Positions 1,054 to 17,850 of a DNA stretch of 52,420 nt are shown here, in pieces. The position numbers and the translations under genes were made by a program. The stretch's first letter is position 1; each line of letters opens with the position of its first letter. Under the pieces are notes generated by a model. That model was not told where the DNA came from. It saw only the letters and a list, made by a program, of their open reading frames with translations, and did not search any database. Location of the stretch: the NCBI GenBank assembly GCA_905236805.1, contig CAJOPH010000025.1:1-52420 (forward strand), in the 5' to 3' direction. This stretch comes from an uncultured Eubacterium sp. (GTDB taxonomy: Bacteria; Bacillota; Clostridia; Lachnospirales; Lachnospiraceae).

Positions 1054-1377
1054 ATGGCTCAACATGCTTCAAGAAATAATGTCATAAAAAAAGAGGACAT
1101 TGAATCAAAAAAAATAAAGACAGCTGTGGCCTTGTCCTACAAGCCCGGAGACCTTGCCCCAAAGATTTTAGCCACGGGAAAAGGCAAGGTGGCCGAAAAA
1201 ATAGTCGAAAAGGGCTTAGAGGCAGATGTACCCTTCTACAGCGACAATAAGCTGGCAGATACCTTATCAAAGCTTGAGATAGGAGATGAGATTCCTCCCG
1301 AGCTTTATGAGGTGGTGGCAGAGATTTTGGTATTTGTCGATGAGATGGACAGGTTAAGGTCGAGGCTTGATATTTAA
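1054..1377 (+). CDS. FlhB C-terminal-domain homologue (YlqH/FhlB-like)
   Basis: This 107-residue protein matches the cytoplasmic C-terminal domain of FlhB, the substrate-specificity switch of the flagellar export apparatus, without the membrane part. Visible signatures are KTAVALSYKPGD, an ADVPFYSDNKLADTL segment and the ending LEIGDEIPPELYEVVAEIL, which tracks the FlhB C terminus closely. The autocleavage motif NPTH that precedes the conserved AVAL segment in true FlhB is absent, so it probably does not self-cleave. A GAGGG stretch lies about 6 bases before the ATG. It follows the FliK-like gene and overlaps yraN by one base (TAATG), implying cotranscription. It may interact with the FliK-like neighbour. 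Confidence 0.75.
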   Translation: MAQHASRNNVIKKEDIESKKIKTAVALSYKPGDLAPKILATGKGKVAEKIVEKGLEADVPFYSDNKLADTLSKLEIGDEIPPELYEVVAEILVFVDEMDRLRSRLDI

Positions 1378-1818: not shown

Positions 1819-4800
1819 ATGCAGGGCCGTATAAGGAAGATATCTGCCGGGATATTCGAGGATGCGCCAAAGGTGGTGCTCTTGTCGGAAAAGCTTAGCC
1901 TTTCGGTATATGAAAACGAGACATCAAAGGGGAGCTTTACCGTAGGCTCATTAAATGGCATTGCGCTGGAAGGAATGGCCGTATCATCGTCTTCGAGAAT
2001 ACATGTGGGGGAGGGCAAATATCAGGGAACCGAAGTGATGGTGCCTTATGCCGTAGACGCGTCAAACCTTGTGGCAGGGGATTTTGTCCATGGGACCATT
2101 ACCTTCCTTAGCACGGGAGGGGAGCTTTCCATAGAGGTATCTGCCAGGGTGTTGGCCCATTATCCCGCATGGGAAAATAATGAGGCCAGAACCCTTAAGG
2201 AATTTATCGGAATAACATCAGAAAATAAGGACGTAGGGAAAAAGATATTTTCATCACCTTTTTTCCCAAATATCTTTTCCGATTCAGAAGAAAATAAAAG
2301 GCTTCTTTATGAGGGACTTACCTTAAAAAACGGGATAAATGACCATACCTTTGATGAATTTCTCCTGGGGAACGGAGGGGTAAGGGAAAGCGTGATTAAA
2401 GACATCGGTAAGGAGGAAGATCTGCCCCAAACAGAAGATTTAAAAGGCGCAAAAAAAACCATCCTTAAGGCCGGCATACAAAGAAAAATAAAAAGGTTAA
2501 GAGCCTCACACATGAAATCCTATGTGGATTATTCCTTAGGGCTAAAAGACAGGGAAGAATGGCTTGAAGAGGAAAAAGAAACCCTTGGAGAATGGATGGA
2601 TATTTCTCCCGATGATCCTTCACCAAAGATCTTATTTGCCTACGTGTACGCATTATCCGGCAAAGGCAAAAAGGCAAAGTCCCTTCTGGAAGAGTGTGAT
2701 GACAAGGTGATCATGGAAGACCATTCTTTATGGGCTTTTTATGACCTTGCAAGGGCTAAGGCACAGGGAGGAGAAGACCTTGTAAGGGAGCTTAAAGCAG
2801 AGGTCAGGGAATTTCTTTCCAGGGATCAAAGAAATGACGTCATTTTGTTTTGCCTCGTCTGCATGGATGAGGAAACAAGTCCCCAAAGGAAGATAGCTTT
2901 ATTAAGGGATGGAATCCTTTCGGGGATGAGATCCCCATACATATATTCCGAGGCGGTGAAGCTGTTTAGGGAATATCCCTATCTGATAGCAGAGGCCGGT
3001 AAATTTGAGCAAATGACCATTTCCTGGGCCGCAAGGAGGGGAGTTCTCACCGAGGATATGGCAGACCAGATCTGCAGGTTTTCCGAAGATCTTGCGGGAT
3101 ATTCCCCCATTATGTTTAAAACCCTCTGCAGGTGCGTGTCCATTGATGAAAAAAACAAAGACAGGACAAGGGCGCTTATCAGCTATATGATAAAAAACGA
3201 CCTCGTAGGGGAGAGGTTCATAAAATGGTATGAATTGGGAGAAAAAGCCTCCCTCCATACGGCAGGATTATATGAAAATTATATGAGGTCTCTGGGATGC
3301 CTCAAAGATCCTGACTATTCCGGGATATCCAGGCAGATGAAGCTGTATTTCAGCTACGGGGCGAAGCTCCCCGACAATGAAAAAGCCTCACTTTACGCCC
3401 TTATCATAAGGCAAAAGGAAGAAGACAAAAACATGTATGAAAGGTATAAGGAATCAATAGATGCCTTTGCCTCACATTGCCTTGCGAACAGACAGATATC
3501 CCCTTACATAAAGGAGGTTTACGAGGAATTTTTTTCTGGTAAGTCGTTTTCCTTTGAGGATGCGTATGCGGCGGGAGAGGTGATATTCTACAAGAAAATA
3601 ACCTTCAAAAAGCCAAGGGAAGCAAAAAAAATAATCGTCATTAACAGCGTCTTTAAGGGTGAGCAGGAAATAGAACCTAAGGACTTTGAAGAAGATGGCA
3701 TATTTGCCAGGCTCATAGGATCTTCCTACTGCATACTGTGGGAGGATAAGGACAAAAAAAGGCATACCCTTACCGGGGATGTGCATATGGAGGATATGTT
3801 TCCGGTATACAGGTACAGGAAGAAATTCATGGAAATATGTCCGGAACACCCATACCTTATCCTGGATGAATTTTACGGAAAGAAAAAGAGCGTAACCTCT
3901 GATGAGGAGAAAACGGCATCTGTATTTAAGATATTATCATCAGGCAGGGTAAGGAAGCAGGCAGGAAAGGAAATCCTTACCATCCTCGCAAAGGAATGTA
4001 TCGAAGATCACAAAAAGCCGTATATATTAAGGGAGCTCTTAAAGACAGATATTTATTGCCTTGAGCCTTCATTGAAGGGAAAGATCACAGACCTTTTGAT
4101 AGAAAAAGGCATGATGGATGAGGCGTACAGGCTCATAAGTCTCTATGGCAGGGAGCACGTAAATAAAGAGCGCCTTTGCACCCTTTTTGACTATTATCTG
4201 TCCCTTCCGTCAAAGTCAGAGGAAGGCGACATGATACTTACGGACGGCTTGCTTTACCTCTTCGAAAAGGACATTTATACGGATGACGGGCTTTGCTTCC
4301 TTGAAAACCATGCCCGGGGAAAGACCAAGCTTCTTGCAAGGATAAGGAGGGCGGCGGTAAAGTCCGGGATATCAAACGGGGAGTTTGACAAAAAAATAAC
4401 GAGGCAGAAGCTTTTTACGAGGGAGTATGTAAGCGACATAAATGACATATTTAAGGGAGCCTTTGAAGGGGGGCTTGAGATGTTCGAAAAAATGGCTTTT
4501 TTTGCCGTTTATTCAAAGGATTACCTAAGGGATGAGGCTCAGGAGGATGAGGAGGTATTTTCATTATTTTTCAGGACAATAGACTCCTTATCATCACCCC
4601 CCATAGACCTTATAAGGATGGGGCTTTTGAAATGGCTGGTAAAGATACAATACCCCCAAAAGAACATGAGGGCCATGGTGGATACCGACCTCTCCTATTT
4701 CATGGGAAAGGGGATGTATCTTTCGTTTTTTGAAGGGATAGATCCATCACTGAAGGGAAAGTACCAGCTTGAGGAAGTTTCCATAGCGGATTATGTGGGG

Positions 4801-5154
4801 GATGGAAAGGAAAAAGCTGTTACATTTTGCTACAGGTACAATGACCAAAAGGATTTCAAGGCCATAAAAGTATCGCCCGTCATCATGAATATTTATTCGA
4901 TGGCCATACCCCTTTTTCCGGGGGATGAGGTACAGTATTATTTTTCCGTGGGAGATGAAGGCGGAACAGAGGTAGTAGGAAGTGGGATAAAGCAAAAGGG
5001 CGATGTGTATTTCACATCGGGAAAGAGCGTATATGACCACCTCCAAAACCTCATAGCCGCGAGGAACCTTAACGATATGAAAAAGGCAAGACAGACCGTT
5101 TGGGATTATGAAAAGACAAGCGTTTTGGTCAAAGGGATGTTTGGGATAGTATGA
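1819..5154 (+). CDS. Large uncharacterised repeat protein (DUF5717-like)
   Basis: This 1111-residue protein has no signal peptide or membrane segment. The first 115 or so residues look beta-rich (for example VVLLSEKLSLSVYENE and DFVHGTITFLS), which suggests a small beta-sandwich module. The remainder is mostly helical, with many paired helices resembling TPR/solenoid repeats (for example SPKILFAYVYALSGKGKKAKSLLEEC). The last 170 residues return to beta strands. From memory the whole length fits the Clostridia family DUF5717, but no search was possible. The ATG has GAGG 8 bases upstream. The stop overlaps the start of the next gene by ATGA. A scaffold or chaperone-like role beside the Hsp70/actin-like neighbour is inference. 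Confidence 0.7.
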   Translation: MQGRIRKISAGIFEDAPKVVLLSEKLSLSVYENETSKGSFTVGSLNGIALEGMAVSSSSRIHVGEGKYQGTEVMVPYAVDASNLVAGDFVHGTITFLSTGGELSIEVSARVLAHYPAWENNEARTLKEFIGITSENKDVGKKIFSSPFFPNIFSDSEENKRLLYEGLTLKNGINDHTFDEFLLGNGGVRESVIKDIGKEEDLPQTEDLKGAKKTILKAGIQRKIKRLRASHMKSYVDYSLGLKDREEWLEEEKETLGEWMDISPDDPSPKILFAYVYALSGKGKKAKSLLEECDDKVIMEDHSLWAFYDLARAKAQGGEDLVRELKAEVREFLSRDQRNDVILFCLVCMDEETSPQRKIALLRDGILSGMRSPYIYSEAVKLFREYPYLIAEAGKFEQMTISWAARRGVLTEDMADQICRFSEDLAGYSPIMFKTLCRCVSIDEKNKDRTRALISYMIKNDLVGERFIKWYELGEKASLHTAGLYENYMRSLGCLKDPDYSGISRQMKLYFSYGAKLPDNEKASLYALIIRQKEEDKNMYERYKESIDAFASHCLANRQISPYIKEVYEEFFSGKSFSFEDAYAAGEVIFYKKITFKKPREAKKIIVINSVFKGEQEIEPKDFEEDGIFARLIGSSYCILWEDKDKKRHTLTGDVHMEDMFPVYRYRKKFMEICPEHPYLILDEFYGKKKSVTSDEEKTASVFKILSSGRVRKQAGKEILTILAKECIEDHKKPYILRELLKTDIYCLEPSLKGKITDLLIEKGMMDEAYRLISLYGREHVNKERLCTLFDYYLSLPSKSEEGDMILTDGLLYLFEKDIYTDDGLCFLENHARGKTKLLARIRRAAVKSGISNGEFDKKITRQKLFTREYVSDINDIFKGAFEGGLEMFEKMAFFAVYSKDYLRDEAQEDEEVFSLFFRTIDSLSSPPIDLIRMGLLKWLVKIQYPQKNMRAMVDTDLSYFMGKGMYLSFFEGIDPSLKGKYQLEEVSIADYVGDGKEKAVTFCYRYNDQKDFKAIKVSPVIMNIYSMAIPLFPGDEVQYYFSVGDEGGTEVVGSGIKQKGDVYFTSGKSVYDHLQNLIAARNLNDMKKARQTVWDYEKTSVLVKGMFGIV

Positions 5155-6413
5155 GTGATAAGTATTGCGGAATCGATTTTAAGGAAAATATATTGATAGC
5201 CTCATATTACGAGAAGAATATGATGGAACCTTTTACCCTTTCGCAATATGAAGGCTCGGAGGATTATGGGATACCATACGCATTGTCCATCCTGAAGGAA
5301 GGTAATACGGTCTTTGGAAAACAGGCCCTTGATAACACCCAAAAGACCACCCTTACGGAAAAAAATGTCCTTGACGCGGTATATTACAACAAGGCGTACA
5401 GGCTGGCGGATAAAAGGGTAGATGCCGTAGAGCTCATGGAAATATACCTTTCAACCATCATCAAAATGGCCCTTGAAAAGATGAATGACGGGTATTTGGA
5501 CGATCTGGTATTTACCACCGAAAAAATAGAAAAGGATTTTTCATACATGGCAGATTCCCTTTCTTCTGACAGCCTTGGGATAAGGGGAAAGATAAAGCTG
5601 ATAGACCACAAGGAGGCCTTTGCTTATTACGCCTTGTCCCAGAGCGCGGATCTAAAAAAAGCAAATGTTGCCCTTTTTGATTTTGACGGAAAAAGGATGA
5701 TGTTTTATTGTCTGCTAAAAAAGGGTAGGAGCGTCCCTTATTACGCGGCCGTAAGGGAAGAGACAGAGGATGGTTTTTACCAAAATGATTTCGAAAAGAC
5801 CATACTCGACAATAATGAAAATGAAAGAAAGAAACTTGACGCAAGGTTTAGTGATTACGTCAAGGAAAAGCTCTCCGAAGGTCCTTACAGCGCGGTATAT
5901 CTTGTGGGTGATGGCTTTGAGGGAGACTGGATGAAGCTTTCCGTAGATGTCTTGTGCGGATATGCCAGGGTTTTTCTTGGCCAAAATCTTTTTTCCAAGG
6001 GCGCGTGTTATTACGCGATGAGGGAAAAGGCAACATCAGAGGAATTCATTTACCTGGGAGAAAGCAAGACCAGGGCGGACATAGAGATAGCCTTAAAGGA
6101 TAAGGGAAAGGCCATGTCTTACCCCCTTTGCAGGGCAGGAAGAAACTGGTATGATGAGGATGAAAAGATAGAAGTCATCCTGGAAGGTGAAGAAAGGATA
6201 GACCTTGTGTTAAGGTCTCCCGACGGCACCCAGGACAAGGTGGAGGTGCTTGACCTTAAAGGCCTGGAAAAAAGACCAAACCGCATGACAAGGCTATCCA
6301 TAAAGGCAAGACCCAGTGCCGAGGATACCGTGAGGATACGCGTGGAGGATCTGGGCTTTGGGGATATTTATCCCTCCGGTGGAAAGGTATGGGAATACAA
6401 GGTAACCATTTGA
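5151..6413 (+). CDS. Actin/Hsp70-fold ATPase-like protein (DUF5716-like)
   Basis: This 420-residue protein shows the layout of the actin/Hsp70 ATPase superfamily. Near the N terminus YCGIDFKENILIASYY resembles phosphate-1. At about residue 170 NVALFDFDGKRMMFYCLL resembles phosphate-2. Near residue 247 SAVYLVGDGFEGDWM resembles the adenosine motif. The motifs are degenerate (no canonical DxGxT), so ATP binding is plausible but unproven. The last 120 residues are beta-rich (IEVILEGEERIDLVLRSPDG), comparable to a substrate-binding beta domain. I recall this as DUF5716. The start overlaps the upstream gene by 4 bases and a TPR-like gene follows after 12 bases. The three probably act together; an Hsp70-like chaperone or filament function is inference. 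Confidence 0.68.
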   Translation: MSDKYCGIDFKENILIASYYEKNMMEPFTLSQYEGSEDYGIPYALSILKEGNTVFGKQALDNTQKTTLTEKNVLDAVYYNKAYRLADKRVDAVELMEIYLSTIIKMALEKMNDGYLDDLVFTTEKIEKDFSYMADSLSSDSLGIRGKIKLIDHKEAFAYYALSQSADLKKANVALFDFDGKRMMFYCLLKKGRSVPYYAAVREETEDGFYQNDFEKTILDNNENERKKLDARFSDYVKEKLSEGPYSAVYLVGDGFEGDWMKLSVDVLCGYARVFLGQNLFSKGACYYAMREKATSEEFIYLGESKTRADIEIALKDKGKAMSYPLCRAGRNWYDEDEKIEVILEGEERIDLVLRSPDGTQDKVEVLDLKGLEKRPNRMTRLSIKARPSAEDTVRIRVEDLGFGDIYPSGGKVWEYKVTI

Positions 6414-6425
6414 TAAGGGTGTTAT

Positions 6426-7247
6426 ATGATACTGTGCTGTGGTGAAAAATCAAAAAAACCTTACATAGTGGAAGACGAAGGGGTAAACATATACTCTATT
6501 GAAGAGCTTTGCTTTTATCTGATCCATTATCCCGAATATGTATTGACAGACCTTTTTTCGGAAAGGCTCTTTGAGTGGATGGAATATGACGCGCATCTTC
6601 CTTCGGTCTCAAAAAAGCTAAGAAGTCTGGATCCTTCGGATGATAAATATTATCAAAGGGCTGCCAGGGTGGTCTTTGAGGAGAGCGGCTATGCCACCGA
6701 AAGGGAAAAAGAATCCGTCTTAAGCTTTCTGAATGTACTTACGGGAATGACCGATGAAGAAAGGAAAAAGGCCTATGCGGACGGGAGGCTGAAGGAGGGA
6801 AAGATATATAGGGCCATAAAGATCTATAACAAGATATTAGGTGAGTCAAAAAATATCCCCGATGCCTTAAGGGCGGATATTTTGCATAATCTTGGGACGG
6901 CCTACGCAAAGCTCTTTTTGTTTGATACCGCGGCGGATTTTTTTAAGAGGGCAAATATCGCCTATCCTAACGAGATCCATCAGGAAGCGTACAAGAGGGC
7001 GCTGTACCTATACGAAGATGACAAGGAAAGACTCCTTCATGAAAACATCCTCTCCGGTGAGGATCTGGGAAGGATAGGAAAAACGGAAAAAGACATCCTG
7101 GCTTTTCAATTCCATGGGGATAGGATAAAGGAAGCTTTTTCCAATGATGCTCAAAGCATAACACAAGAGACTATATCGGCCTGGAAGGCTGATTATCTAA
7201 AGAGGATGGAAAATGGGATTCTTGCAAAGGCTTTTTGGGACAGATGA
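6426..7247 (+). CDS. Uncharacterised TPR-like helical protein
   Basis: This 273-residue soluble protein is predicted to be almost wholly helical. Residues about 120-190 contain two TPR-like helix pairs (GKIYRAIKIYNKIL and ILHNLGTAYAKLFLFDTAADFFKRA), typical of protein-protein adaptors. The first 60 residues (YSIEELCFYLIHYPEYVL) form a separate conserved-looking region. A GGGTG ribosome site precedes the ATG. The end overlaps the next gene by 35 bases in another frame, so translation of the pair is probably coupled. Function is unknown; the context suggests an adaptor between the Hsp70/actin-like protein and the membrane protein downstream. Confidence 0.65.
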   Translation: MILCCGEKSKKPYIVEDEGVNIYSIEELCFYLIHYPEYVLTDLFSERLFEWMEYDAHLPSVSKKLRSLDPSDDKYYQRAARVVFEESGYATEREKESVLSFLNVLTGMTDEERKKAYADGRLKEGKIYRAIKIYNKILGESKNIPDALRADILHNLGTAYAKLFLFDTAADFFKRANIAYPNEIHQEAYKRALYLYEDDKERLLHENILSGEDLGRIGKTEKDILAFQFHGDRIKEAFSNDAQSITQETISAWKADYLKRMENGILAKAFWDR

Positions 7248-8529
7248 TTATTATGACGATGACGACTACTATGATGAATACGATGAATATGAAGAAGACG
7301 GATATTTAGAAGAGCTCATAGGCTCGAAGGAAAAAGAGCCCCCGGAAAAAGAGCCCCCGGAAAAAGAGCCCTTACCGGCATCTTCCCCCAAAGAGGCTTT
7401 ACGGCCACCCGCCCCCAGGATCAAAAAGCTTCCCATTGATGATTTTGACAGGGAGCAGGAGGTTGTTTCATGCTGTGAGAGGATAATGGACCACACCTCC
7501 CAGATGAGGGATGCCAAGGCCCAGTACGATGTGATCAGCGACTACCTGAAGGATGCGGAAAAAATAGATGACCTTCCCGATGGAAAAAGGATGAGGCTCA
7601 TAAGGGCGGCACAGGACGTTGAAAATGTCTCTGCGCAAAGGGACGAGCTTTTGGAAAGAAAGTCCAAGATCCCCGAAAGCAGGAGGGCTTTGTTTGATTC
7701 CATGGGTGATGACATGGTAGACCAGTTGGAGAGATTAAAGTCCAATGAATCCTACCAGGCACTCGTCAAAAGGGATATGCAGCGTCTGGAAGGAGAGAGG
7801 CATTCGTGGATAGTCGAGATAGAAGAATCAAAAAACGCCCAGAAGATCTTAAGGCGTTCGCTTTATATTTTGATGGGGATTTTCATTGCATGGATCATCA
7901 TATACCTGGTCCTTCTTAATAACATTTCGGGAAGGTATATCGATGAACTAAAGTTTGCAATGCTTATTGTGAGCGCTCTTGTGGCGGCCTTGGGATTTGC
8001 GTCATACCTTAGGTTTTTGAACAGGAAAACCAACCAGAAAAAAGCAAGGCGCGCCTTAAATAAATCCATAGTCCTTCTCAACCAGATGAAGGCAAAGTAT
8101 GTGACCATCACCAATGCGGTAGACTATGCCTACGAAAAATATGACATCCACAGCTCCCATGAACTTTCCTATCTGTGGGAGCAGTACCTTAAGGCCAAAA
8201 AAGAAGAGGAGGAATTTGAAAGGACGGGGGATGAGCTTGATGCCGTAGGAAGGGAGCTAAAGAGGGTGTTGGAGGCCATGGAGATAGACGCTGTCAATTT
8301 CTGGGCCATACAGACCAGGGCATTGATAGACAGGAGGGAAATGGTGGAGGTAAGGCACCATATGGTAGAGCAGCGCCAGAGGATAAGGACGCATATGGAA
8401 AGACAGATAGTAGATATCCGCAATGAGCGGGAAAACCTCCTTCTTCTTACCGATGGGCAGGTGGTCGCCAATCCCGAGATGAGGAACATATTGGACGCTG
8501 TCAACAAGTTTTGCGAAGAGTTTGCTTGA
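7213..8529 (+). CDS. Coiled-coil membrane protein with acidic N terminus
   Basis: This 438-residue protein begins with a short amphipathic stretch (MGFLQRLFG) and about 25 Asp/Glu/Tyr-rich residues, an arrangement reminiscent of SepF N termini. An EKEPP linker follows, encoded by three 15-bp repeats at 7330-7374. A long charged coiled coil covers about residues 75-210. Two membrane segments sit near residues 217-236 and 246-266, separated by a short loop. A second cytoplasmic-type coiled coil runs to the end (RREMVEVRHHMVEQRQRIR). The start at 7213 has AGGATGG just upstream, inside the previous gene. It is probably the membrane anchor of the four-gene set. I do not recognise a named family. 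Confidence 0.7.
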   Translation: MGFLQRLFGTDDYYDDDDYYDEYDEYEEDGYLEELIGSKEKEPPEKEPPEKEPLPASSPKEALRPPAPRIKKLPIDDFDREQEVVSCCERIMDHTSQMRDAKAQYDVISDYLKDAEKIDDLPDGKRMRLIRAAQDVENVSAQRDELLERKSKIPESRRALFDSMGDDMVDQLERLKSNESYQALVKRDMQRLEGERHSWIVEIEESKNAQKILRRSLYILMGIFIAWIIIYLVLLNNISGRYIDELKFAMLIVSALVAALGFASYLRFLNRKTNQKKARRALNKSIVLLNQMKAKYVTITNAVDYAYEKYDIHSSHELSYLWEQYLKAKKEEEEFERTGDELDAVGRELKRVLEAMEIDAVNFWAIQTRALIDRREMVEVRHHMVEQRQRIRTHMERQIVDIRNERENLLLLTDGQVVANPEMRNILDAVNKFCEEFA

Positions 8530-8554
8530 CATTTTGGGGAAATGGTGCTATATT
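8526..8554 (+). promoter_or_regulatory. Sigma-A promoter for panB operon
   Basis: TTGACA at 8526-8531, a 17-base spacer and TATATT at 8549-8554, preceded by TGC, which gives an extended -10. The -35 box overlaps the TGA stop (8527-8529) of the preceding gene. Transcription would start near 8561. Confidence 0.85.
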
Positions 8555-8564
8555 GTAACTGTTC

Positions 8565-8584
8565 AAAACCCCTGCGGGGGTTTT
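8565..8584 (+). terminator. GC hairpin at start of panB leader (terminator or attenuator)
   Basis: An 8-bp inverted repeat, AAAACCCC / GGGGTTTT, encloses a 4-base loop. The T tract is short (TTTTAC). It could end the upstream four-gene transcript. It also lies only a few bases after the predicted panB start site, so it would form the extreme 5' end of that mRNA. Confidence 0.55.
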
Positions 8585-8624
8585 ACTGATTGTGATCCGA
8601 TAAGGACGGGGAGATATATTTATC

Positions 8625-9470
8625 ATGAAACACACTGTTTTGACATTGCAGAAGATGAAGGAAGATGGGGAAAAGATCACCATGGTGACGGCCTATGACT
8701 ATACGACTGCCGCGATAGCTTCCGAGTCCGGGATAGACACCATACTGGTAGGGGATTCTTTGGGGATGACCATGCTGGGCTATGATGATACGCTGGCGGT
8801 CACCATGGATGACATGATCCATCATGCAAGGGCCGTTACCAGGGGAGCCGGGGATACTTTCGTTATCTGCGATATGCCATTTATGTCGTACCAGGCGTCT
8901 GTCTATGACGCCGTGACGAATGCCGGGCGCATCATGAAGGAGTCAGGCGCGAATGCGGTAAAGATCGAAGGAGGCGCGAATATTTATGACAGTATCGCGG
9001 CCATAGTGGATGCCTCCATTCCCGTGTGCGGACATATAGGAATGACGCCCCAGTCGGTAAACGCCATGGGGGGATTCAAGGTTCAGGGAAAAGACATAAA
9101 AAAAGCCCAGCAGCTGATAGAGGACGCAAGGGCCTTTGAAGATGCGGGGGCGTTCATGGTGACCTTGGAGTGCGTTCCTTCCAGGCTGTCGGAAATCATT
9201 ACCAGGGAGCTTTCCATCCCCACCATCGGAATAGGAGCAGGAGCTGGGTGCGACGGGCAGGTATTGGTGTATCAGGATATGCTAAACATGTTCCCGGGGC
9301 ACCAGGCAAAGTTTGTCAAGCATTTTGCCGAGGTGGGCGAAGAGATGAGGAAAGGCTTTAAGGCCTACATAAGTGAGGTAAAGGAGGGAGTCTTCCCTTC
9401 CGATGAGCATTCCTTCAAGATCGACGATGAAGTGATAGAAAACCTGGAACTGGGCAAGATAAGGAAATAA
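8625..9470 (+). CDS. panB: 3-methyl-2-oxobutanoate hydroxymethyltransferase
   Basis: Ketopantoate hydroxymethyltransferase transfers a one-carbon unit from 5,10-methylene-tetrahydrofolate to 2-oxoisovalerate, the first committed step to pantothenate. The 281-residue length is typical. Visible PanB signatures are TAYDY near residue 23, ILVGDSLGM with the Mg-binding Asp, [18 protein letters not shown] with the following GGFKVQGK, and [22 protein letters not shown] lies upstream of the ATG. It is followed after 2 bases by panC, then panD and coaBC, so the route to CoA precursors is encoded in one transcript. Confidence 0.97.
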
Positions 9471-9472
9471 AG

Positions 9473-10324
9473 ATGGCAGTGATAGTGACAAAAACCGTAG
9501 ATGAGGTAAGAAGCCTTGTCAAGGAATGGAAGAGAAAGGGTGATACCATAGGGCTGGTTCCCACCATGGGATATCTTCATGAGGGTCATGGGAGCCTCAT
9601 AAAGAGGGCGGTATCCGAAAATGACAAGGTGATAGTATCAGATTTCGTAAACCCGATACAGTTTGCTCCCAGCGAAGACCTTTCCACCTATCCGAAGGAT
9701 TTTGATGCGGACAGGGCACTTTGTGAGGAGCTTGGGGCAGATCTTATATTTGCGCCGGAGCCATCCGAAATGTACAAGGAAGATTTTTCCACCCACGTGG
9801 ATGTGTCACAGATTACGGAAGGTCTTTGCGGAAAGAGCAGGCCCACGCATTTCAGGGGAGTGTGTACCGTGGTGTCAAAGCTCTTTCATATATCGGGGGC
9901 AAACAGGGCGTATTTTGGGCAAAAGGACGCCCAGCAGCTGGCGGTCGTCCGCCGTATGGTAAGGGATCTTAATTTCGACATACAGATCATAGGGTGTCCC
10001 ATCATCCGCGAGGATGACGGGCTGGCCAAAAGCTCCAGGAACACCTATCTGGATGATAAAGAAAGAAAGGCCGCAACGGTGCTCTACAGGGCCCTTTCGG
10101 AAGGGAAAAACCTCCTTGACGGAGGGGAAAGGGACACCGGCGTCATAGTGGAAAAGGTTCAGGAAATCATTGAGTCAGAGCCCATGGCAAAGGTGGACTA
10201 TGTGGAGCTTTTAAGGTGGGATTCGTTGGAAAACCTTTCTTTGGTAGACGGTCCCGTGCTTTTGGCGGTAGCAGTTTACATCGGAAGGACCAGGCTCATA
10301 GATAATATTGTTTACAGTGACTAA
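9473..10324 (+). CDS. panC: Pantothenate synthetase (pantoate-beta-alanine ligase)
   Basis: ATP-dependent condensation of pantoate with beta-alanine, in the cytoplasm. The 283-residue protein has the HIGH-type nucleotidyltransferase motif as PTMGYLHEGHGSLI, the pantoate-binding FVNPIQFAPSED, the GLCGKSRPTHFRGV loop, FGQKDAQQL, and the KMSKS-equivalent SSRNTYLDD. The start lies 2 bases after the panB stop. Beta-alanine would come from the downstream panD product. Confidence 0.97.
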   Translation: MAVIVTKTVDEVRSLVKEWKRKGDTIGLVPTMGYLHEGHGSLIKRAVSENDKVIVSDFVNPIQFAPSEDLSTYPKDFDADRALCEELGADLIFAPEPSEMYKEDFSTHVDVSQITEGLCGKSRPTHFRGVCTVVSKLFHISGANRAYFGQKDAQQLAVVRRMVRDLNFDIQIIGCPIIREDDGLAKSSRNTYLDDKERKAATVLYRALSEGKNLLDGGERDTGVIVEKVQEIIESEPMAKVDYVELLRWDSLENLSLVDGPVLLAVAVYIGRTRLIDNIVYSD

Positions 10325-10401
10325 GTTAATTTTTTAACAGTTCCTAAGGAATCAGTAAGGAGTCCATTTCAGGCGAAGCAAATATCTTGAGGTATAAGAA
10401 A

Positions 10402-10797
10402 ATGCTGTTACTTACAATGCTAAAAGGAAAAATCCACAGGGCCAGGGTAACTGAGGCCAATGTGGATTACGTGGGATCTATTACCGTAGACTTAGATCTT
10501 TTGGACGCGTCCGATATCCTGCCCTACGAGAGGGTCCAGGTAGTGGATGTGGATAACGGGGAGAGGCTTGAGACCTATACCATCCCCGGAAAGAGGGGCT
10601 CGGGGTGCATATGCTTAAACGGGGCCGCCGCAAGGAAGGTGAACGTGGGGGACGAGGTCATCATAATGGCTTACTGCCAGATGGAGAACCTTGAAGCCAC
10701 ACAGCATCAGCCCCACGTGGTGTTCGTGGACAAGGAAAACAAGATAACGGAAACTTCCAGATATGAAGAATATGGAGTAGTACACAAGAATGCTTGA
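10402..10797 (+). CDS. panD: Aspartate 1-decarboxylase precursor
   Basis: PanD makes beta-alanine from aspartate using a pyruvoyl group formed by self-cleavage. The 131-residue proenzyme shows [21 protein letters not shown]; cleavage is expected at Gly25-Ser26 (E. coli Gly24-Ser25). [19 protein letters not shown] is the conserved C-terminal part. The ATG at 10402 was chosen because GAGG lies 9 bases upstream and the product then matches family length; an in-frame TTG at 10387 is less likely. The roughly 77-base gap after panC carries an AGTTCCTAAGG motif. The end overlaps coaBC by 8 bases. Confidence 0.95.
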
Positions 10798-12004
10798 AGG
10801 TAAAACCATAGTACTTGGGATAACAGGATCGATAGCTGCCTACAAGATAGCCACCCTTGCCAGCATGCTCGTAAAAAAACGCGCGGATGTCAGGGTGGTC
10901 ATGACGAAAAATGCCACGGAGTTCATAACGCCCTTTACGTTTGAGACCCTGACCCACAACAAGTGCCTTGTGGATACATTTGACAGGGATTTTGAGTATG
11001 ACGTAAAGCACATCTCCCTTGCCCAAAAAGCAGACGTTTTGTTGATAGCGCCTGCCACCGCAAACATCATCGCGAAAATAGCCCACGGGATCGCGGACGA
11101 TATGCTATCTACGCTGGCTTTGGCCTTTGGGGGACCTTTGCTCATGTCACCCGCAATGAATACGGGGATGCTCGAAAAGGAAGTGACAAAGGATAATATT
11201 GAAAAGCTTAAGGGCTATGGGGCAGAAATCATCTCTCCCGCGGAAGGCTACCTTGCCTGCGGAACCGAGGGAAAGGGCAAGATGGCAGAGCCTTATGTCC
11301 TTTATGATCATATCCTTAAGGCCTGCCTTTACGAAAAGGATTTTGAGGGAAGAAAGGTTCTCGTTACCGCAGGCCCCACCATGGAAAAGATAGATCCCGT
11401 AAGGTTTATATCAAACCACTCCACAGGTACTATGGGATATGAGATAGCAAGGGAGGCTTCCTTCAGGGGAGCCGATGTGACACTGATATCGGGAAAGACT
11501 AATTTAACATCTCCACCCTTCATAAGAAAGCAAGATGTCACAAGTGCCGAAGATATGTATGAGGCAGTTACCGATATTTCAGATTCACAGGATATCATCA
11601 TAATGGCGGCCGCGGTTGCGGATTTTAGGCCAAAGAATGTATCCGATGAAAAAATAAAAAAAGCTTCCAAAGGGAATGGTTGCGCCAAAAATATTTTGGA
11701 ATTGGAGCCTACGGAAGATATTTTAATGACCTTGGGTCAAAAGAAAAAAAAGGGACAGTTTTTGTGCGGCTTTGCCATGGAGACCAAAAACATGGAGGAA
11801 GAGGCAAGGAAAAAACTTATCTCCAAAAACGCGGATTTAATTGTGGCGAACAACGTAAAGCTGGAAGGTTCGGGCTTTGGCTACGATACCAACGTGGTTA
11901 CCATGGTAACGAAAGATGAAATGATAGGGCTTCCCATGATGGGAAAAGGAGAAGTTTCCCATAAAATACTTGACCAGATCAAAAAAATGTTGTATAATGG
12001 ATAA
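10790..12004 (+). CDS. coaBC: Bifunctional phosphopantothenoylcysteine decarboxylase / phosphopantothenate-cysteine ligase
   Basis: The 404-residue fusion catalyses two successive CoA steps. The N-terminal half is the flavin-dependent decarboxylase ([12 protein letters not shown], the active-site His in [20 protein letters not shown], and SPAMNTGM). The C-terminal half is the ligase ([53 protein letters not shown]). It starts inside the end of panD. Its last 35 bases contain the promoter of the tRNA gene that follows. Finding panBCD and coaBC together suggests coordinated control of CoA supply. Confidence 0.96.
11970..11998 (+). promoter_or_regulatory. Promoter for tRNA-Pro inside the coaBC 3' end
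   Basis: TTGACC (11970-11975), 17 bases, TATAAT (11993-11998). It lies within the last codons of coaBC, and the predicted start near 12005 is just before the tRNA. Confidence 0.8.
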
Positions 12005-12017
12005 GTTGCATTTAGTT

Positions 12018-12091
12018 CGGGGCGTGGCGTAGTTTGGTAGCGCGCTTGACTGGGGGTCAAGAGGTCGTCGGTTCAAATCCGGTCGCCCCGA
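12018..12091 (+). tRNA. tRNA-Pro (anticodon GGG)
   Basis: A 74-base cloverleaf can be drawn. The acceptor stem is CGGGGCG / CGCCCCG with discriminator A. The D arm contains AGTTTGGTAG. The anticodon stem is CTTGA / TCAAG with loop CTGGGGG, so the anticodon is GGG at 12052-12054. The T arm is GTCGG-TTCAAAT-CCGGT. CCA is not encoded. An open frame that runs through this gene in fusion with plsX is an artefact. Confidence 0.95.
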
Positions 12092-12139
12092 TTTTCATTG
12101 GGAATAAAGTTCCTAAGGTAAACTTTCTACTGCGAAAGG

Positions 12140-12169
12140 TTCGGCGTTCATGTTTTCATGAACGCCGAA
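12140..12169 (+). repeat. Perfect 13-bp inverted repeat upstream of plsX
   Basis: TTCGGCGTTCATG and its exact complement flank a TTTT loop; the repeat ends 11 bases before the plsX ATG. There is no T tract, so an intrinsic terminator is unlikely. It could be an mRNA hairpin or the operator of a dimeric regulator. Confidence 0.85.
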
Positions 12170-12180
12170 ATGGTATATAT

Positions 12181-13248
12181 ATGACAGATAAAGATGTGAG
12201 GATAGCCGTAGATGCTATGGGCGGTGACAATGCCCCATCCGAAATAATACGGGGAGCCGTATTGGCCGCCAATGAATCTAAAACGATCCGCATCATCCTG
12301 GTGGGAAAAAAGGATATAGTGGAGGATGAATTAAGGAGCCTTTCTTTTCCCGAAGGGTCGATAGAGATAAAGGATGCCCCTGATGTCATAGAGACTGCGG
12401 AAGCGCCGGTTTTGGCCATCAGAAAGAAAAAGGAATCCTCCATGGTGGTGGCCCTTAATATGGTAAAGCATGGCGAGGCTGATGCCTTCGTGTCCGCGGG
12501 AAGCTCCGGGGCCATCCTGGTGGGCGGACAGGTCATAATAGGAAAGGCTAGGGGAGTAAAGAGGGCTCCTTTGGCTCCCCTTATTCCCACTGCCAAGGGA
12601 GCCTGCCTTCTCATAGACTGTGGAGCGAACGTGGATGCGAGGGCAGAGCACCTTGCGCAGTTTGCGAGGATGGGTTCCATCTACATGGAAAACGCCGTGG
12701 GGGTAAGAAACCCAAAGGTAGCGATAGTAAATATCGGCGCGGAAAAGGAAAAGGGAAACGCCCTGGTGAAGGAGGCATATCCTTTGCTTGAGACCTTAGC
12801 CGGCATCAATTTCATCGGAAACATAGAGGCAAGGGACATACCTTCAGGTTTAGCCGATGTGGTGGTATGTGAGGCCTTCGTGGGTAATGTCATCCTAAAG
12901 CTTTACGAGGGTGTGGGAGCCACCCTCCTCGGGGAGTTGAAAAATGCCTTCATGTCCGGCGCAAGGTCAAAGCTTGGGGCCATGATGGCAAAGCCCGCTC
13001 TAAAGGATACGTTAAAGAAGTTTGACGCGTCCAGCTACGGGGGAGCCCCCCTGCTTGGCCTAAAGAGTCTGGTGGTAAAGGCCCATGGCTCAAGCACGGC
13101 CAAAGAGATAAAAAATTCAATCCTTCAGTGCGAGACCTTTGCGAGGCAGGATATAAATTCAAAAATCCTTGAAGCATTTTCCGAGGAGGACATGGTTTCA
13201 ATGGATAAGGTTTCATCGGATAATGTTTTATCGGAAAATGAAGGGTAA
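12181..13248 (+). CDS. plsX: Phosphate acyltransferase PlsX
   Basis: PlsX converts acyl-ACP to acyl-phosphate, the donor for PlsY in phospholipid synthesis, at the membrane surface. The 355-residue product has the diagnostic start VRIAVDAMGGDNAPSEII, SAGSSGAILVGG, LLIDCGANVDARAEHL and CEAFVGNVILKLYEG. The ATG at 12181 gives the standard N terminus; there is no convincing Shine-Dalgarno site, and a perfect 13-bp hairpin sits just before it. acpP follows 17 bases downstream, linking acyl donor and acyltransferase. Confidence 0.95.
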   Translation: MTDKDVRIAVDAMGGDNAPSEIIRGAVLAANESKTIRIILVGKKDIVEDELRSLSFPEGSIEIKDAPDVIETAEAPVLAIRKKKESSMVVALNMVKHGEADAFVSAGSSGAILVGGQVIIGKARGVKRAPLAPLIPTAKGACLLIDCGANVDARAEHLAQFARMGSIYMENAVGVRNPKVAIVNIGAEKEKGNALVKEAYPLLETLAGINFIGNIEARDIPSGLADVVVCEAFVGNVILKLYEGVGATLLGELKNAFMSGARSKLGAMMAKPALKDTLKKFDASSYGGAPLLGLKSLVVKAHGSSTAKEIKNSILQCETFARQDINSKILEAFSEEDMVSMDKVSSDNVLSENEG

Positions 13249-13265
13249 TGTGGAGGAAATGAAAA

Positions 13266-13496
13266 ATGGAATTAAAGCTATTAAAAAAGATAATCTCTGA
13301 CGTCCTTGATGTAGATGAAGAAGATATCACTGAAGAGACGACATTTGAGGGAGATTTGGGGGCGGACTCTTTGGATGTTACGAGCATCATCCTTGAGCTT
13401 GAGGAGCAGCTGGGGATAGAGATAAGTGATGATGAGGCACTGGAGATAAAGACCGTGGGGGATGCGGCGGAAAAAATAAGGGCCGCAAAGTCTTGA
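13266..13496 (+). CDS. acpP: Acyl carrier protein
   Basis: The 76-residue acidic four-helix protein has the phosphopantetheine attachment site LGADSLD, with Ser35 as the modified residue. It carries growing acyl chains in fatty acid synthesis and supplies PlsX. GGAGG lies 9 bases before the ATG. The gene is followed by a strong terminator hairpin (13527-13560), so the plsX-acpP transcript probably ends there. Confidence 0.96.
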   Translation: MELKLLKKIISDVLDVDEEDITEETTFEGDLGADSLDVTSIILELEEQLGIEISDDEALEIKTVGDAAEKIRAAKS

Positions 13497-13526
13497 AGGG
13501 GACTGCCGCAGTATAGAGATTTTTAG

Positions 13527-13560
13527 GGCTGTCTTTGGATCAATGCAAAGGCAGCCTTTT
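13527..13560 (+). terminator. Intrinsic terminator after acpP
   Basis: GGCTGTCTTTG (13527-13537) pairs with CAAAGGCAGCC (13546-13556), 11 bp with one G-T pair and an 8-base loop, followed by TTTT. Confidence 0.8.
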
Positions 13561-13569
13561 GGATATGAA

Positions 13570-14280
13570 ATGAAGACACAAGAAGAAGAGTTTCAGGACA
13601 TAATAGGATATAAGTTTAAGGATATTAAGCTTTTAAAAAGAGCCCTTACCCACAGTTCATTCGCCAATGAATGCCAGAATCCCGACATACAGGATAATGA
13701 AAGGCTTGAGTTTTTGGGGGATGCCGTGCTGGAAGTGGTAAGCAGCGAATTTTTATTCAAAAGATACGATGAGGTATCGGAAGGGGAGCTTACGAAGCTG
13801 CGCGCCAGTATCGTCTGCGAACCCACATTGTACCGGTGTGCGGCAGATGTGGATCTGGGAAGGTATCTTTACATCGGGAGGGGGGTCGAGGCTTCCGGTG
13901 GAAGAAATAGTATGTCAGTGTGTTCGGATGCCATGGAGGCCGTTATAGGGGCGTTATACTTAGACGGTGGGATTGATGCCGCGTCGGAATGGATACACAG
14001 GGTAATCCTTAATGACATTGAGAAAAAAAGGCTCTTTTTTGATTCCAAGACATCGCTTCAGGAGCTTACCCAGGCCGCAGGCTTTGGTACGCCCGAATAC
14101 AAGGTAACGGGGATGTTGGGTCCTTCGCACAGCAGGGTGTTTACGGTGGATATTTATATACTTGGGAAAAAGATTACCGGGGGCAGGGGAACCTCCAAGA
14201 AACAGGCGCAGCAGGATGCCGCGCACAAGGTTCTTGAAATGTATGGTGATGACATTGGCAGATTATCAGGGGATGATTAG
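13570..14280 (+). CDS. rnc: Ribonuclease III
   Basis: RNase III cleaves double-stranded RNA in rRNA processing and mRNA turnover. The 236-residue product has the catalytic signature NERLEFLGDAVLEVV, a second acidic motif around SDAMEAVIGALYLDGG, and a C-terminal double-stranded RNA-binding domain (KTSLQELTQAAG ... TSKKQAQQDAAHKVLE). I prefer the ATG at 13570 because the in-frame ATG at 13543 lies in the loop of the acpP terminator. Neither start has a strong ribosome site. The stop codon directly abuts the smc start, the usual rnc-smc-ftsY order. Confidence 0.94.
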   Translation: MKTQEEEFQDIIGYKFKDIKLLKRALTHSSFANECQNPDIQDNERLEFLGDAVLEVVSSEFLFKRYDEVSEGELTKLRASIVCEPTLYRCAADVDLGRYLYIGRGVEASGGRNSMSVCSDAMEAVIGALYLDGGIDAASEWIHRVILNDIEKKRLFFDSKTSLQELTQAAGFGTPEYKVTGMLGPSHSRVFTVDIYILGKKITGGRGTSKKQAQQDAAHKVLEMYGDDIGRLSGDD

Positions 14281-17200
14281 ATGTATCTGAAAAGGATTGA
14301 GCTGCAGGGATTTAAGTCCTTTGCGCACAGGACGAAATTTGAATTCCATAATGGCATCACGTGCATAGTAGGTCCTAACGGAAGCGGAAAAAGCAATGTG
14401 GCTGATGCGGTGCGCTGGGTTCTTGGGGAGCAGAGCGCAAAGCAGCTCAGGGGAGGCAGCATGCAGGATGTCATCTTCGCGGGCACCGTGAACAGGCGTC
14501 CCTTAAGCTCTGCCTTTGTGGCCATCACCCTGGACAATTCCGACCATGCCCTTCCCACGGATTTTTCAGAGGTGACGGTGGCAAGGAGGCTCTACAGGTC
14601 AGGGGAAAGCGAGTACCTTATCAACGGATCCCCCTGCAGGCTAAAGGACGTTCAGGAGCTTTTTTATGATACCGGAGTGGGAAAGGAAGGGTATTCAATC
14701 ATAGGCCAGGGGCAGATAGAGAAGATAGTAAGCGGAAGGCCCGAGGACAGAAGGGATCTTTTTGACGAGGCAGCGGGCATAGTAAAGTACAAGCGCCGCA
14801 TGGGAGAGGCCCAGAAGAAATTAGAAGGACAGAATGAAAATCTCTTAAGGATAGGGGATATCATTACAGAGCTTGAAAAGCAAAAAACCCCGCTTGAGGA
14901 GCAGGCAAAGACCGCAAGGGAGTACCTTTCAAAAAAACAGGAATTGAAAGACCTTGACATATCATATTATCTTAAGGTGGCAGGGGAAATAAAAAAAGAC
15001 CTTGAAGAGGCAGATAAAAACATAAGCCTCGTAGAAGAAGAAAAAAAAGAAGCAGACCAAAGCTATGAGAAGCTCAAAAAAGACTCTTCGGCCGCCGAAA
15101 AAAGGCTTGAGGCCCTCGAAGGGATAATCTCAAGGCATTCTAAAGAAAAAAGCGATGCATCCTACAAAAAGTCTGAGGATATGCACAAGATAGAGCTTTT
15201 GACCGAGCAGATAAATGCCGCGAATGTTACGGGCGATCACTACAAAAAGAGCCTTTTTGAACTGGAAGAAAAGATAGACGAAATAGATAAAGCCCTCAAG
15301 GATTACGATGGAAAGTTAAAAGGCCAAGATGACTCCTTAAGAAAGGCCATAGAAACCAAGGATGAAAAAAACGATGAATTTTCCAAGGTCTCTGAAAGGA
15401 TTGCCGTAATAAATGAAAAAATAGAATCAGGCAAGGAAAGGATATTGGAGCTCATAGAAAAAAAGGCCATGATAAAGTCCGAGGGACAGCATTTTAAGAC
15501 CTTAGTGGAGCAGATATCCATCCAAAAGGATGAGGCTAAGCAAAAAAACGAAGAGCTTTTGGAAGAAAGAAAACAGATAGGTGACTTAATAAAAAATACC
15601 AAAGATGAAAAAATAAGGGCCGAAAAAGAGCTTGACCAAATAAAAGAGCAAAGGGAAGAAGCAAAAGACAGGCTAAATGAACTGGGAATGCGAAGAAATG
15701 AGACACAAGATAGGCTGGAAACAGTAAGCCGGACCCTTATAAGGTCAAAGTCCCAGCTGGAGTCTTTGCAGAATATCGCGGAGCGATATGAAGGCTATGG
15801 TCATGCCACCAGGAAGGTCATGGAAAAAAAGAAGGACTACCCCAAGATCTGCGGTATAGTCTCAGAGCTTATCCATGTGGAACAAAAGTATGAGACCGCC
15901 ATAGAGACTGCCCTGGAAGGTGGGATAAAGAATATAGTTACAGAGGATGAAGATACCGCAAAGAGGATGATAGATTTCCTAAAGAAAGGAAGGCACGGAA
16001 AGGTCACCTTCCTTCCCCTTACCGCTGTAAAAAGGCGAAATGCGGAAAAAGAAAAGCAGGTTCTTGGGGAGGATGGCGTAATAGGATTGGCCCCGGAGCT
16101 TGTATCATATGATGAAAAGTATTCCGATGTGGTATCGCAGCTGTTGGGGCAGATCATCATAGTGGATAATATCGACAATGCCCTAAGGACGGCAAAGAAG
16201 AATCACTATTCCTTAAGGCTTGTTACCCTCGCGGGGGAATACCTAAAGCCCGGGGGTTCCATTACGGGAGGAGCCTTCAAAAATGACGCAAACCTCCTTG
16301 GGAGGAACCGTCAGATGGATGAGCTTTCCCAAAAAATAAAAGACCTTGAAAAAAACAAAAACGACCTTGAAAAGGAGCTTTCCCGCATAAAGGACAGGCG
16401 CGTACAGGCAAGAAACCTTGGGGATGAGCTAAATGAAAAAATAAAAGAAAAAGAGATCGAAATAAACTCCATAAAAAACTCCATAAAACACAGGGAAAAA
16501 GATATGGAGAAAAAAGATGACGAGATAAAGGATCTGAAAGAAACAGCCACAGGGTATGACAAGAGGCAAAAAAGGATAGAAAAAGAAAGCAGGGACAATG
16601 AATTAAAGGAAAAGGAATCAGAAAAGAAAAGCAATGAAATAGCACAGGAAAACGCAAGGCTCGTTGTGGAGCTTTCGACACTTTCCGAAAGAAGTAAGAC
16701 CCTTGATGAAGAATTAAAAAAAGCCCTTCTCGATGAGGCGGAAGAAAAAAGAAAAATGGACTACCTTTCGGAAAATATTGCCCGGATACAAGGTCAAAAA
16801 AATGAATATCTCTCCCAAAAAAAAGAGCTTTCGGTGAGAATGGACGATCAAAGGGACGATGCCGACAGGAAAAAAGAAAATATAAAGTCCCTTGAAAAAG
16901 AAATAGGGCTTTTGGATGAAAAAGAAGAGCAGGCCTCCATAAAGTCCAAAGAGGCCTTGGAGGAAAAAGAAGAAGTAAACAAAAGGTATAAAGAGTACTT
17001 TAATACCAGGGAAGACCTTACCAGGAAGATAGGCGCCCTTGAAAAAGAATCCCTAAGGCTCATCCAGAAGAAGGAAAAATACGAGGAGAGGTTAAAGGCG
17101 CAGGATTCATACATGTGGAACGAATATGAGCTTACCTACCACAATGCCAAAGATGAGGCAAAGGACATTGATTTTTCCACAGAGGAGCTGTCCGCAAAGA

Positions 17201-17850
17201 TAAAGGCCCTTAAAAATGACATAAAGCAGTTGGGACCTGTCAATGTAAACGCCATAGAAAGCTTTAATGAAGTATCCAAGAGGCATGAGTTTCTCTCATC
17301 CCAGAAGGATGACATAGAAAAGGCAAGGGAGAACCTCATAAAGGTGATAGACGATTTGGACAAAGGAATGAGGGAGAAATTCAACGAAAACTTTGCGCTG
17401 ATAAGGGAAGAATTCCAAAAGGTTTTTTCGCTTCTTTTCGGAGGTGGCAAGGGAACATTGGAGCTGGTGGACGGTGAAGATGAACTCGAGGCGGGGATAC
17501 AGATAAACGCCCAGCCCCCCGGCAAAAAGCTTCAAAACATGATGCAGCTTTCAGGCGGGGAAAAATCCCTTACAGCCATCTGTCTTTTGTTCGCAATCCA
17601 AAACCTAAAGCCTTCCCCGTTTTGCCTTTTGGATGAGATAGAGGCCGCACTTGATGAACCTAATGTAGAAAGGTTTGCAAAATACCTGCACAAGCTCTCA
17701 AAGAACACGCAGTTCATAGTCATCACCCACAGGAGGGGAAGCATGAACGCGGCGGACAGGCTTTACGGGATAACGATGCAGGAGAAGGGTATATCGGCAC
17801 AGGTTTCCGTGAACCTGATAGAAGATGACCTGGAAAAAAAGAGTGCATAG
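14281..17850 (+). CDS. smc: Chromosome segregation protein SMC
   Basis: The 1189-residue SMC ATPase compacts and segregates the chromosome together with ScpA and ScpB. Walker A is GPNGSGKSN at residues 31-39. Long coiled coils flank a hinge near residues 500-660 (RHGKVTFLPL, GGSITGG). The C-terminal head holds the signature LSGGEKSLTA and the Walker B FCLLDEIEAALDEPN. Length and order are standard. It starts at the base after the rnc stop, with AGGGGATGA serving as ribosome site inside rnc. The arms are very Lys/Glu-rich. Confidence 0.98.
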   Translation: MYLKRIELQGFKSFAHRTKFEFHNGITCIVGPNGSGKSNVADAVRWVLGEQSAKQLRGGSMQDVIFAGTVNRRPLSSAFVAITLDNSDHALPTDFSEVTVARRLYRSGESEYLINGSPCRLKDVQELFYDTGVGKEGYSIIGQGQIEKIVSGRPEDRRDLFDEAAGIVKYKRRMGEAQKKLEGQNENLLRIGDIITELEKQKTPLEEQAKTAREYLSKKQELKDLDISYYLKVAGEIKKDLEEADKNISLVEEEKKEADQSYEKLKKDSSAAEKRLEALEGIISRHSKEKSDASYKKSEDMHKIELLTEQINAANVTGDHYKKSLFELEEKIDEIDKALKDYDGKLKGQDDSLRKAIETKDEKNDEFSKVSERIAVINEKIESGKERILELIEKKAMIKSEGQHFKTLVEQISIQKDEAKQKNEELLEERKQIGDLIKNTKDEKIRAEKELDQIKEQREEAKDRLNELGMRRNETQDRLETVSRTLIRSKSQLESLQNIAERYEGYGHATRKVMEKKKDYPKICGIVSELIHVEQKYETAIETALEGGIKNIVTEDEDTAKRMIDFLKKGRHGKVTFLPLTAVKRRNAEKEKQVLGEDGVIGLAPELVSYDEKYSDVVSQLLGQIIIVDNIDNALRTAKKNHYSLRLVTLAGEYLKPGGSITGGAFKNDANLLGRNRQMDELSQKIKDLEKNKNDLEKELSRIKDRRVQARNLGDELNEKIKEKEIEINSIKNSIKHREKDMEKKDDEIKDLKETATGYDKRQKRIEKESRDNELKEKESEKKSNEIAQENARLVVELSTLSERSKTLDEELKKALLDEAEEKRKMDYLSENIARIQGQKNEYLSQKKELSVRMDDQRDDADRKKENIKSLEKEIGLLDEKEEQASIKSKEALEEKEEVNKRYKEYFNTREDLTRKIGALEKESLRLIQKKEKYEERLKAQDSYMWNEYELTYHNAKDEAKDIDFSTEELSAKIKALKNDIKQLGPVNVNAIESFNEVSKRHEFLSSQKDDIEKARENLIKVIDDLDKGMREKFNENFALIREEFQKVFSLLFGGGKGTLELVDGEDELEAGIQINAQPPGKKLQNMMQLSGGEKSLTAICLLFAIQNLKPSPFCLLDEIEAALDEPNVERFAKYLHKLSKNTQFIVITHRRGSMNAADRLYGITMQEKGISAQVSVNLIEDDLEKKSA

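Follow-up and report, generated by a model that had tools for sequence, protein, structure and literature searches.

We report on a gene cluster, A-B-C(-D), that has no described function and is nearly universal in the Lachnospiraceae, which rank with the most abundant bacteria in the mammalian gut. It was analyzed in a 52,420-nucleotide stretch of DNA from an uncultured Eubacterium sp. of this family (contig CAJOPH010000025.1 of assembly GCA_905236805.1, forward strand; "the window" below), where it occupies positions 1819 to 8529. We propose, with a probability of roughly 0.6, that the products of these genes form an ATP-independent complex whose ancestor was a lidless Hsp70 machine. What the family carries seems to be a reduced form of an eight-gene chaperone operon that other families of the order still have, and the protein families DUF5716 (gene B) and DUF5717 (gene A) thereby gain a predicted fold and origin.

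Gene B has a predicted Hsp70 fold but lacks Hsp70 catalytic features

An earlier reading of the window from its sequence alone (the sequence-only reading below) had named these two families as uncharacterised ones of the Clostridia, and Pfam assigns both proteins by curated score: B matches DUF5716_C (PF18980) with an E value of 6.1e-90 and 301.6 bits (cut-off 34.7), and A matches DUF5717_N (PF18984; E 8.9e-132, 441.1 bits) and DUF5717 (PF18983; E 4.1e-43, 148.1 bits; cut-off 25). Both families are unannotated. An AlphaFold2 (AF2) model of B, built from 65 sequences, has a mean predicted local distance difference test score (pLDDT) of 91.7 and a predicted TM-score (pTM) of 0.84. Foldseek matches this model to DnaK (7kru, E 9.7e-21), with Ssz1 of the yeast ribosome-associated complex (RAC) also among the top matches, and VIA-align superimposes it on 7kru with Z 19.8 and a root-mean-square deviation of 7.9 over 389 residues. 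Because these DnaK matches span both the nucleotide-binding domain (NBD) and the beta part of the substrate-binding domain (SBD-beta), the modeled fold is specifically that of an Hsp70 and goes beyond a merely actin-like one. A search of PDB sequences with B alone gave no meaningful match.

The sequence-only reading had seen degenerate actin/Hsp70 motifs and a beta domain in this 420-residue protein, which the alignment (below) and the model bear out, and it had suggested a membrane-tethered chaperone or filament machine, possibly related to cell shape or the envelope. A filament or shape machine of the MreB or FtsA type would have an actin-superfamily NBD and could use a membrane protein such as D, but the structural matches listed are Hsp70s that include SBD-beta, the sequence relatives of B are Hsp70s as well, with no sequence support for a place among the MreB, FtsA and ParM cytoskeletal actins, and D is missing from many lineages. 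The lists of structural matches are filled by Hsp70s and no other actin-fold family appears in them, so the lists do not by themselves exclude other actin folds. A filament, shape or envelope role found no support in our results as a whole, and we judge it highly improbable.

The functional residues were analyzed in 100 family B sequences aligned with the window genome's own DnaK; positions are given in DnaK numbering. K70 is replaced by L, Y or F and E171 by H, R or Y in these proteins, and T199 and D201 are lost as well. The columns from ~196 to 300, the region of subdomain IIB, are mostly gap in family B and are filled in B1, B2, H1 and V, the Hsp70-related proteins of the eight-gene operon. 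The SBD-alpha lid and the hydrophobic interdomain linker (DVLLLDV) are absent, the V436 column of the substrate pocket is deleted in 100/100 sequences and the M404/A429 arch is unconserved. B thus shares the NBD and SBD-beta fold of Hsp70/DnaK (PF00012), with common descent through B1 and B2, but differs from it in all of these features; on this evidence B would be an Hsp70 by descent and not by function, and its sequence predicts a lidless, non-hydrolyzing protein. When B and B1 were aligned together, the sequences differed too much to be scanned for patterns.

Ssz1 is a lidless Hsp70 with a detached linker that does not hydrolyze ATP and is a fixed subunit of RAC, and yet it binds nascent chains (PMC7083937). 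Since B is likewise lidless, is predicted not to hydrolyze ATP and has Ssz1 among its top structural matches, it might be a co-chaperone of this kind that does not cycle ATP, holding extended client peptides together with A and C and handing them to DnaK; a housekeeping DnaK does persist in the window genome. However, the proteins presumed to partner B are a solenoid (A) and a TPR protein (C), Pfam detects a J-domain in none of A, C and D, and B also lacks subdomain IIB, a loss unreported for Ssz1. The changes at V436 and M404/A429, which are alignment-dependent, likewise argue against peptide holding. We consider this main rival of the proposed scaffold unlikely.

Genes A, C and D

The AF2 model of A (pLDDT 85, pTM 0.61) consists of an N-terminal beta-sandwich, two TPR-like alpha-solenoids, an inner and a C-terminal beta domain, and a C-terminal helical hairpin. 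Its fold matches by Foldseek and VIA are generic TPR/HAT solenoid scaffolds only, in agreement with the solenoid that had been read from the sequence. In several families of the order A is split into an upstream protein of ~300-400 aa and a downstream one of ~890-907 aa (loci L047, L050, L052, L054 and L055); elsewhere it is a single gene. C has only sub-threshold TPR matches in Pfam, which fit its earlier description as TPR-like, and it is a shortened orthologue of a TPR protein of ~387 aa in the eight-gene operon. D matches no Pfam family above the cut-off. The two membrane helices attributed to it were found, but its acidic segment is at the N-terminus and not, as had been thought, in the tail. 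In the lineages that have D, this coiled-coil protein would anchor the cluster's products to the membrane.

An eight-gene operon in sister families

In other families of the order, DUF5716 matches occur in two neighboring genes of an eight-gene operon with the order A, H1, G, B1, B2, V, C and sometimes D (for example L049 4318-18534 and L062 801-14759). H1 is an Hsp70, G has coiled coils and ends in a GrpE domain, B1 is a degenerate Hsp70 with DUF5716, B2 is an Hsp70 with a weak DUF5716 match, V is an Hsp70 fused to a vWA domain and C is the longer TPR protein; B1 and B2 both match PF00012. Common hidden Markov models identify A, B, C and D orthologues, in the same order, in the Lachnospiraceae loci and in this operon. 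K70, E171, T199 and D201 are kept in 47 H1, B2 and V proteins wherever the position is covered. B1 retains subdomain IIB and has already lost the catalytic residues; D201 is R in 18/18 B1 proteins from outside the family, so that B1 had become a pseudo-ATPase while the operon was still complete. H1, B1 and B2 have no recognizable lid, and V carries its vWA domain in the place of the lid. Identity across families is ~70% for H1, B2 and V, and ~26-33% for A, G, B1, C and D.

H1, G, B2 and V are absent from the 18 Lachnospiraceae loci examined. An Hsp70 model finds only DnaK and one partial MreB-like match in the window genome beyond B. Some other Lachnospiraceae have extra Hsp70s, which were considered as H1, B2 or V orthologues and rejected by score (105-313 bits on the H1, B2 and V models versus >1000 for true members). 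Outside the order, none of 249 genomes of the phylum that were searched with the V alignment had a full-length V. A literature search found nothing on DUF5717 and nothing relevant on DUF5716 or the operon, which is weak evidence as it covered open-licence papers only; the eight-gene operon is apparently undescribed.

In the phylogenetic tree the family B proteins together have as their sister the B1 of L052, whose genome contains the full operon (support 99/96). The simplest history is that H1, G, B2, V and subdomain IIB were lost once, on the stem of the Lachnospiraceae. The alternative, that the other families acquired them later, is less likely, because B would then derive from an Hsp70 that already lacked IIB. 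GrpE contacts DnaK through subdomains IIB and IB (PMC10825016), so that the loss of IIB and of the GrpE-domain gene in the same clade is coherent; G may be the exchange factor of the operon's Hsp70s. In the L052 operon itself (3099-17216), V and C each have a split reading frame and G has a length of just 279 aa, which might be sequencing error or an early decay that preceded the losses.

Distribution, co-conservation and selection

DUF5716 is present in 195/200 genomes of the window's family (199 genera), as a single copy in nearly all, and in 4/299 genomes drawn across the phylum, all 4 of which are Lachnospiraceae. Named relatives in a public scan are also all Lachnospiraceae (Roseburia faecis, Pseudobutyrivibrio, Butyrivibrio fibrisolvens 16/4, Eubacterium plexicaudatum and many metagenome-assembled genomes). 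Three of the 5 family genomes with no B match keep A, 2 of these at a contig end, where B has probably been cut off; the other two (G091 and G029) have neither A nor B. In G091, a congener of the window genome, YraN and panB-panC-coaBC are still there, but other genes lie between them where the A-D block would be, and D was found nowhere else in the genome. The block is therefore dispensable in some lineages and appears to have been lost there as a unit. At this locus (L195) YraN belongs to a 398-aa open reading frame that also has an RNase HII-like part.

A, B and C are adjacent and in the same order in 18/18 widely drawn family loci, in one locus of another family and, except on the shortest contigs, in 80 named Lachnospiraceae loci. 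Outside the family, A and B coincide in 65 genomes of the order, with 5 that have A only and 2 that have B only (Fisher p about 1e-45). D immediately follows C in 7/18 of the family loci, and in the other 11/18 genomes (several of them closed; picked for having C without an adjacent D) a whole-genome search did not find it. It follows C in nearly all of the named Lachnospiraceae loci that have room for it (L122 and L179 are exceptions), and in other families it can be elsewhere in the genome. The unit thus has A, B and C as its core and D as an optional extra; of the four genes grouped in the sequence-only reading, the first three are co-conserved. D adjoins valS in several members of the order, even when it is apart from the operon (L062 13506-17989; L196 814-5073, genome G531).

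Median dN/dS values (the ratio of nonsynonymous to synonymous substitution rates) for A, B, C and D are 0.049-0.071 in close pairs, which indicates strong purifying selection. The loss of the catalytic parts and the disappearance of the whole block from G091 could suggest a decaying relic without function, but 195/200 family genomes retain the cluster, and this selection on all four genes comes close to refuting that idea. A role in sporulation was also considered and rejected: the presence of SpoIVA shows no association with the cluster (Fisher p 0.15), and SpoIVA is missing from the window genome.

The operon also has features in common with biological-conflict systems, among which its closest published parallels were found. 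GAP1-N2 GTPase systems combine HSP70, GrpE and FnIII/TPR proteins (Kaur et al. 2020, PMC7159879) in neighborhoods like the eight-gene operon, CoCoNuTs carry a degenerate Hsp70-like protein, CnuD, with an Hsp70-like NBD/SBD, predicted poor ATP hydrolysis and helical repeats (PMC11090510), and V bears a vWA domain, so the cluster might be a defence system akin to these. GAP1-N2 systems have a GTPase, however, and CoCoNuTs a McrB GTPase, McrC and a nuclease, whereas Pfam finds no GTPase, nuclease or other effector among the four window genes or among those of the L049 and L062 operons; the operon instead has three catalytic lidless Hsp70s and a pseudo-Hsp70, and the window cluster has neither GrpE nor a catalytic Hsp70. 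PADLOC gave no strong match, and the single copy, strict gene order and presence in 195/200 genomes are the behavior of core genes and not of a defence island. Because the cluster is near-universal and without effectors, we regard a defence function as improbable.

Proposed origin and role of the cluster

The ATP-independent complex that we favor would have arisen as follows. The ancestor would have been a lidless Hsp70 machine of three catalytic Hsp70s, a GrpE-domain protein, a pseudo-Hsp70 and scaffolds. The stem lineage of the Lachnospiraceae would have lost these genes (H1, G, B2 and V) except for the pseudo-Hsp70 and scaffolds, and B would have lost IIB, the lobe for GrpE-type exchange factors. 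B would now be a structural subunit whose Hsp70 fold provides fixed protein-protein contacts with no ATP cycle; A, B and C may bind one another, the A solenoid, B and the C TPR protein being held together as a cytoplasmic scaffold that D, where present, would tether to the membrane. The chaperone machine of the sequence-only reading thus fits the ancestor, with its three catalytic Hsp70s and GrpE-domain protein, and does not fit the window cluster, from which those parts have been lost; that reading as a whole is partly supported.

Several points weigh against this proposal. D8 and G341 of DnaK are retained in family B (as D9 of B in 96/100 sequences and G253 in 100/100), so B may still bind nucleotide. 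The pocket and linker assignments depend on a multiple alignment at ~15-20% identity to DnaK. The direction of loss relies on one sister genome, L052, a draft metagenome-assembled genome with split frames, and on a midpoint-rooted tree with long branches. Contact among A, B and C is inferred from gene order, overlap, co-occurrence and co-loss. We would give even odds to the fuller statement that the Lachnospiraceae keep a near-universal complex whose Hsp70, with no ATPase, lid, pocket or exchange-factor lobe, turned purely into a structural or adaptor subunit once the ATP-driven partners and the GrpE-domain protein had been lost, and that the operon of the sister families is a second bacterial Hsp70 machine, undescribed and still active. 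The two kinds of locus are a natural experiment in the evolution of an Hsp70 machine, in which sister families keep the full set, one family keeps only the pseudo-Hsp70 and scaffolds, and the exchange-factor lobe and the GrpE-domain protein are lost in the same lineage.

Locus layout and flanking genes

The four genes are all on the + strand and tightly packed, and a check of the open reading frames placed them exactly where the sequence-only reading had, with its 4-base overlap between A and B, 12-base gap between B and C and 35-base overlap between C and D. Table 1 lists the genes and the parts of their products.

Table 1. Genes of the cluster and predicted parts of their products (window coordinates)
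Feature	Position	Strand	Description
Gene A	1819..5154	+	1111 aa, DUF5717 family, predicted scaffold
A residues 19-112	1873..2154	+	N-terminal beta-sandwich (AF2 secondary structure)
A residues 205-590	2431..3588	+	First TPR-like solenoid; match to a TPR subunit of the anaphase-promoting complex (APC/C), Z 11.8 over 171 residues
A residues 591-659	3589..3795	+	Small beta domain between the solenoids (AF2)
A residues 663-981	3805..4761	+	Second solenoid (AF2)
A residues 987-1059	4777..4995	+	C-terminal beta domain (AF2)
Gene B	5151..6413	+	420 aa, DUF5716 family, predicted pseudo-Hsp70 without subdomain IIB and SBD-alpha lid
B residues 1-299	5151..6047	+	Actin/Hsp70-type NBD without subdomain IIB
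B residues 300-420	6048..6410	+	SBD-beta-like domain, altered substrate pocket (model, VIA, alignment)
Gene C	6426..7247	+	273 aa, TPR-like
Gene D	7213..8529	+	438 aa; acidic N-terminus, coiled coils, two-helix membrane hairpin; optional member
D residues 7-36	7231..7320	+	Acidic stretch, net -15
D residues 217-235	7861..7917	+	First transmembrane-like helix
D residues 248-266	7954..8010	+	Second transmembrane-like helix

By consensus matching, no promoter-like site was found directly upstream of A, and a strong sigma-70-like match (TTGACA-17-TATATT, with TG before the -10) lies at 8526-8554, at the stop of D and before panB. Because of this site panB probably starts a separate transcript. The flanking genes vary by lineage and are housekeeping genes (pur genes, an aminotransferase, ABC transport, pan and valS), so an assignment of function from the neighborhood was rejected. 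Upstream of the cluster, window positions 1054-1377 encode a stand-alone FlhB C-terminal-domain protein of 107 aa that adjoins a FliK-like gene (56-1018).

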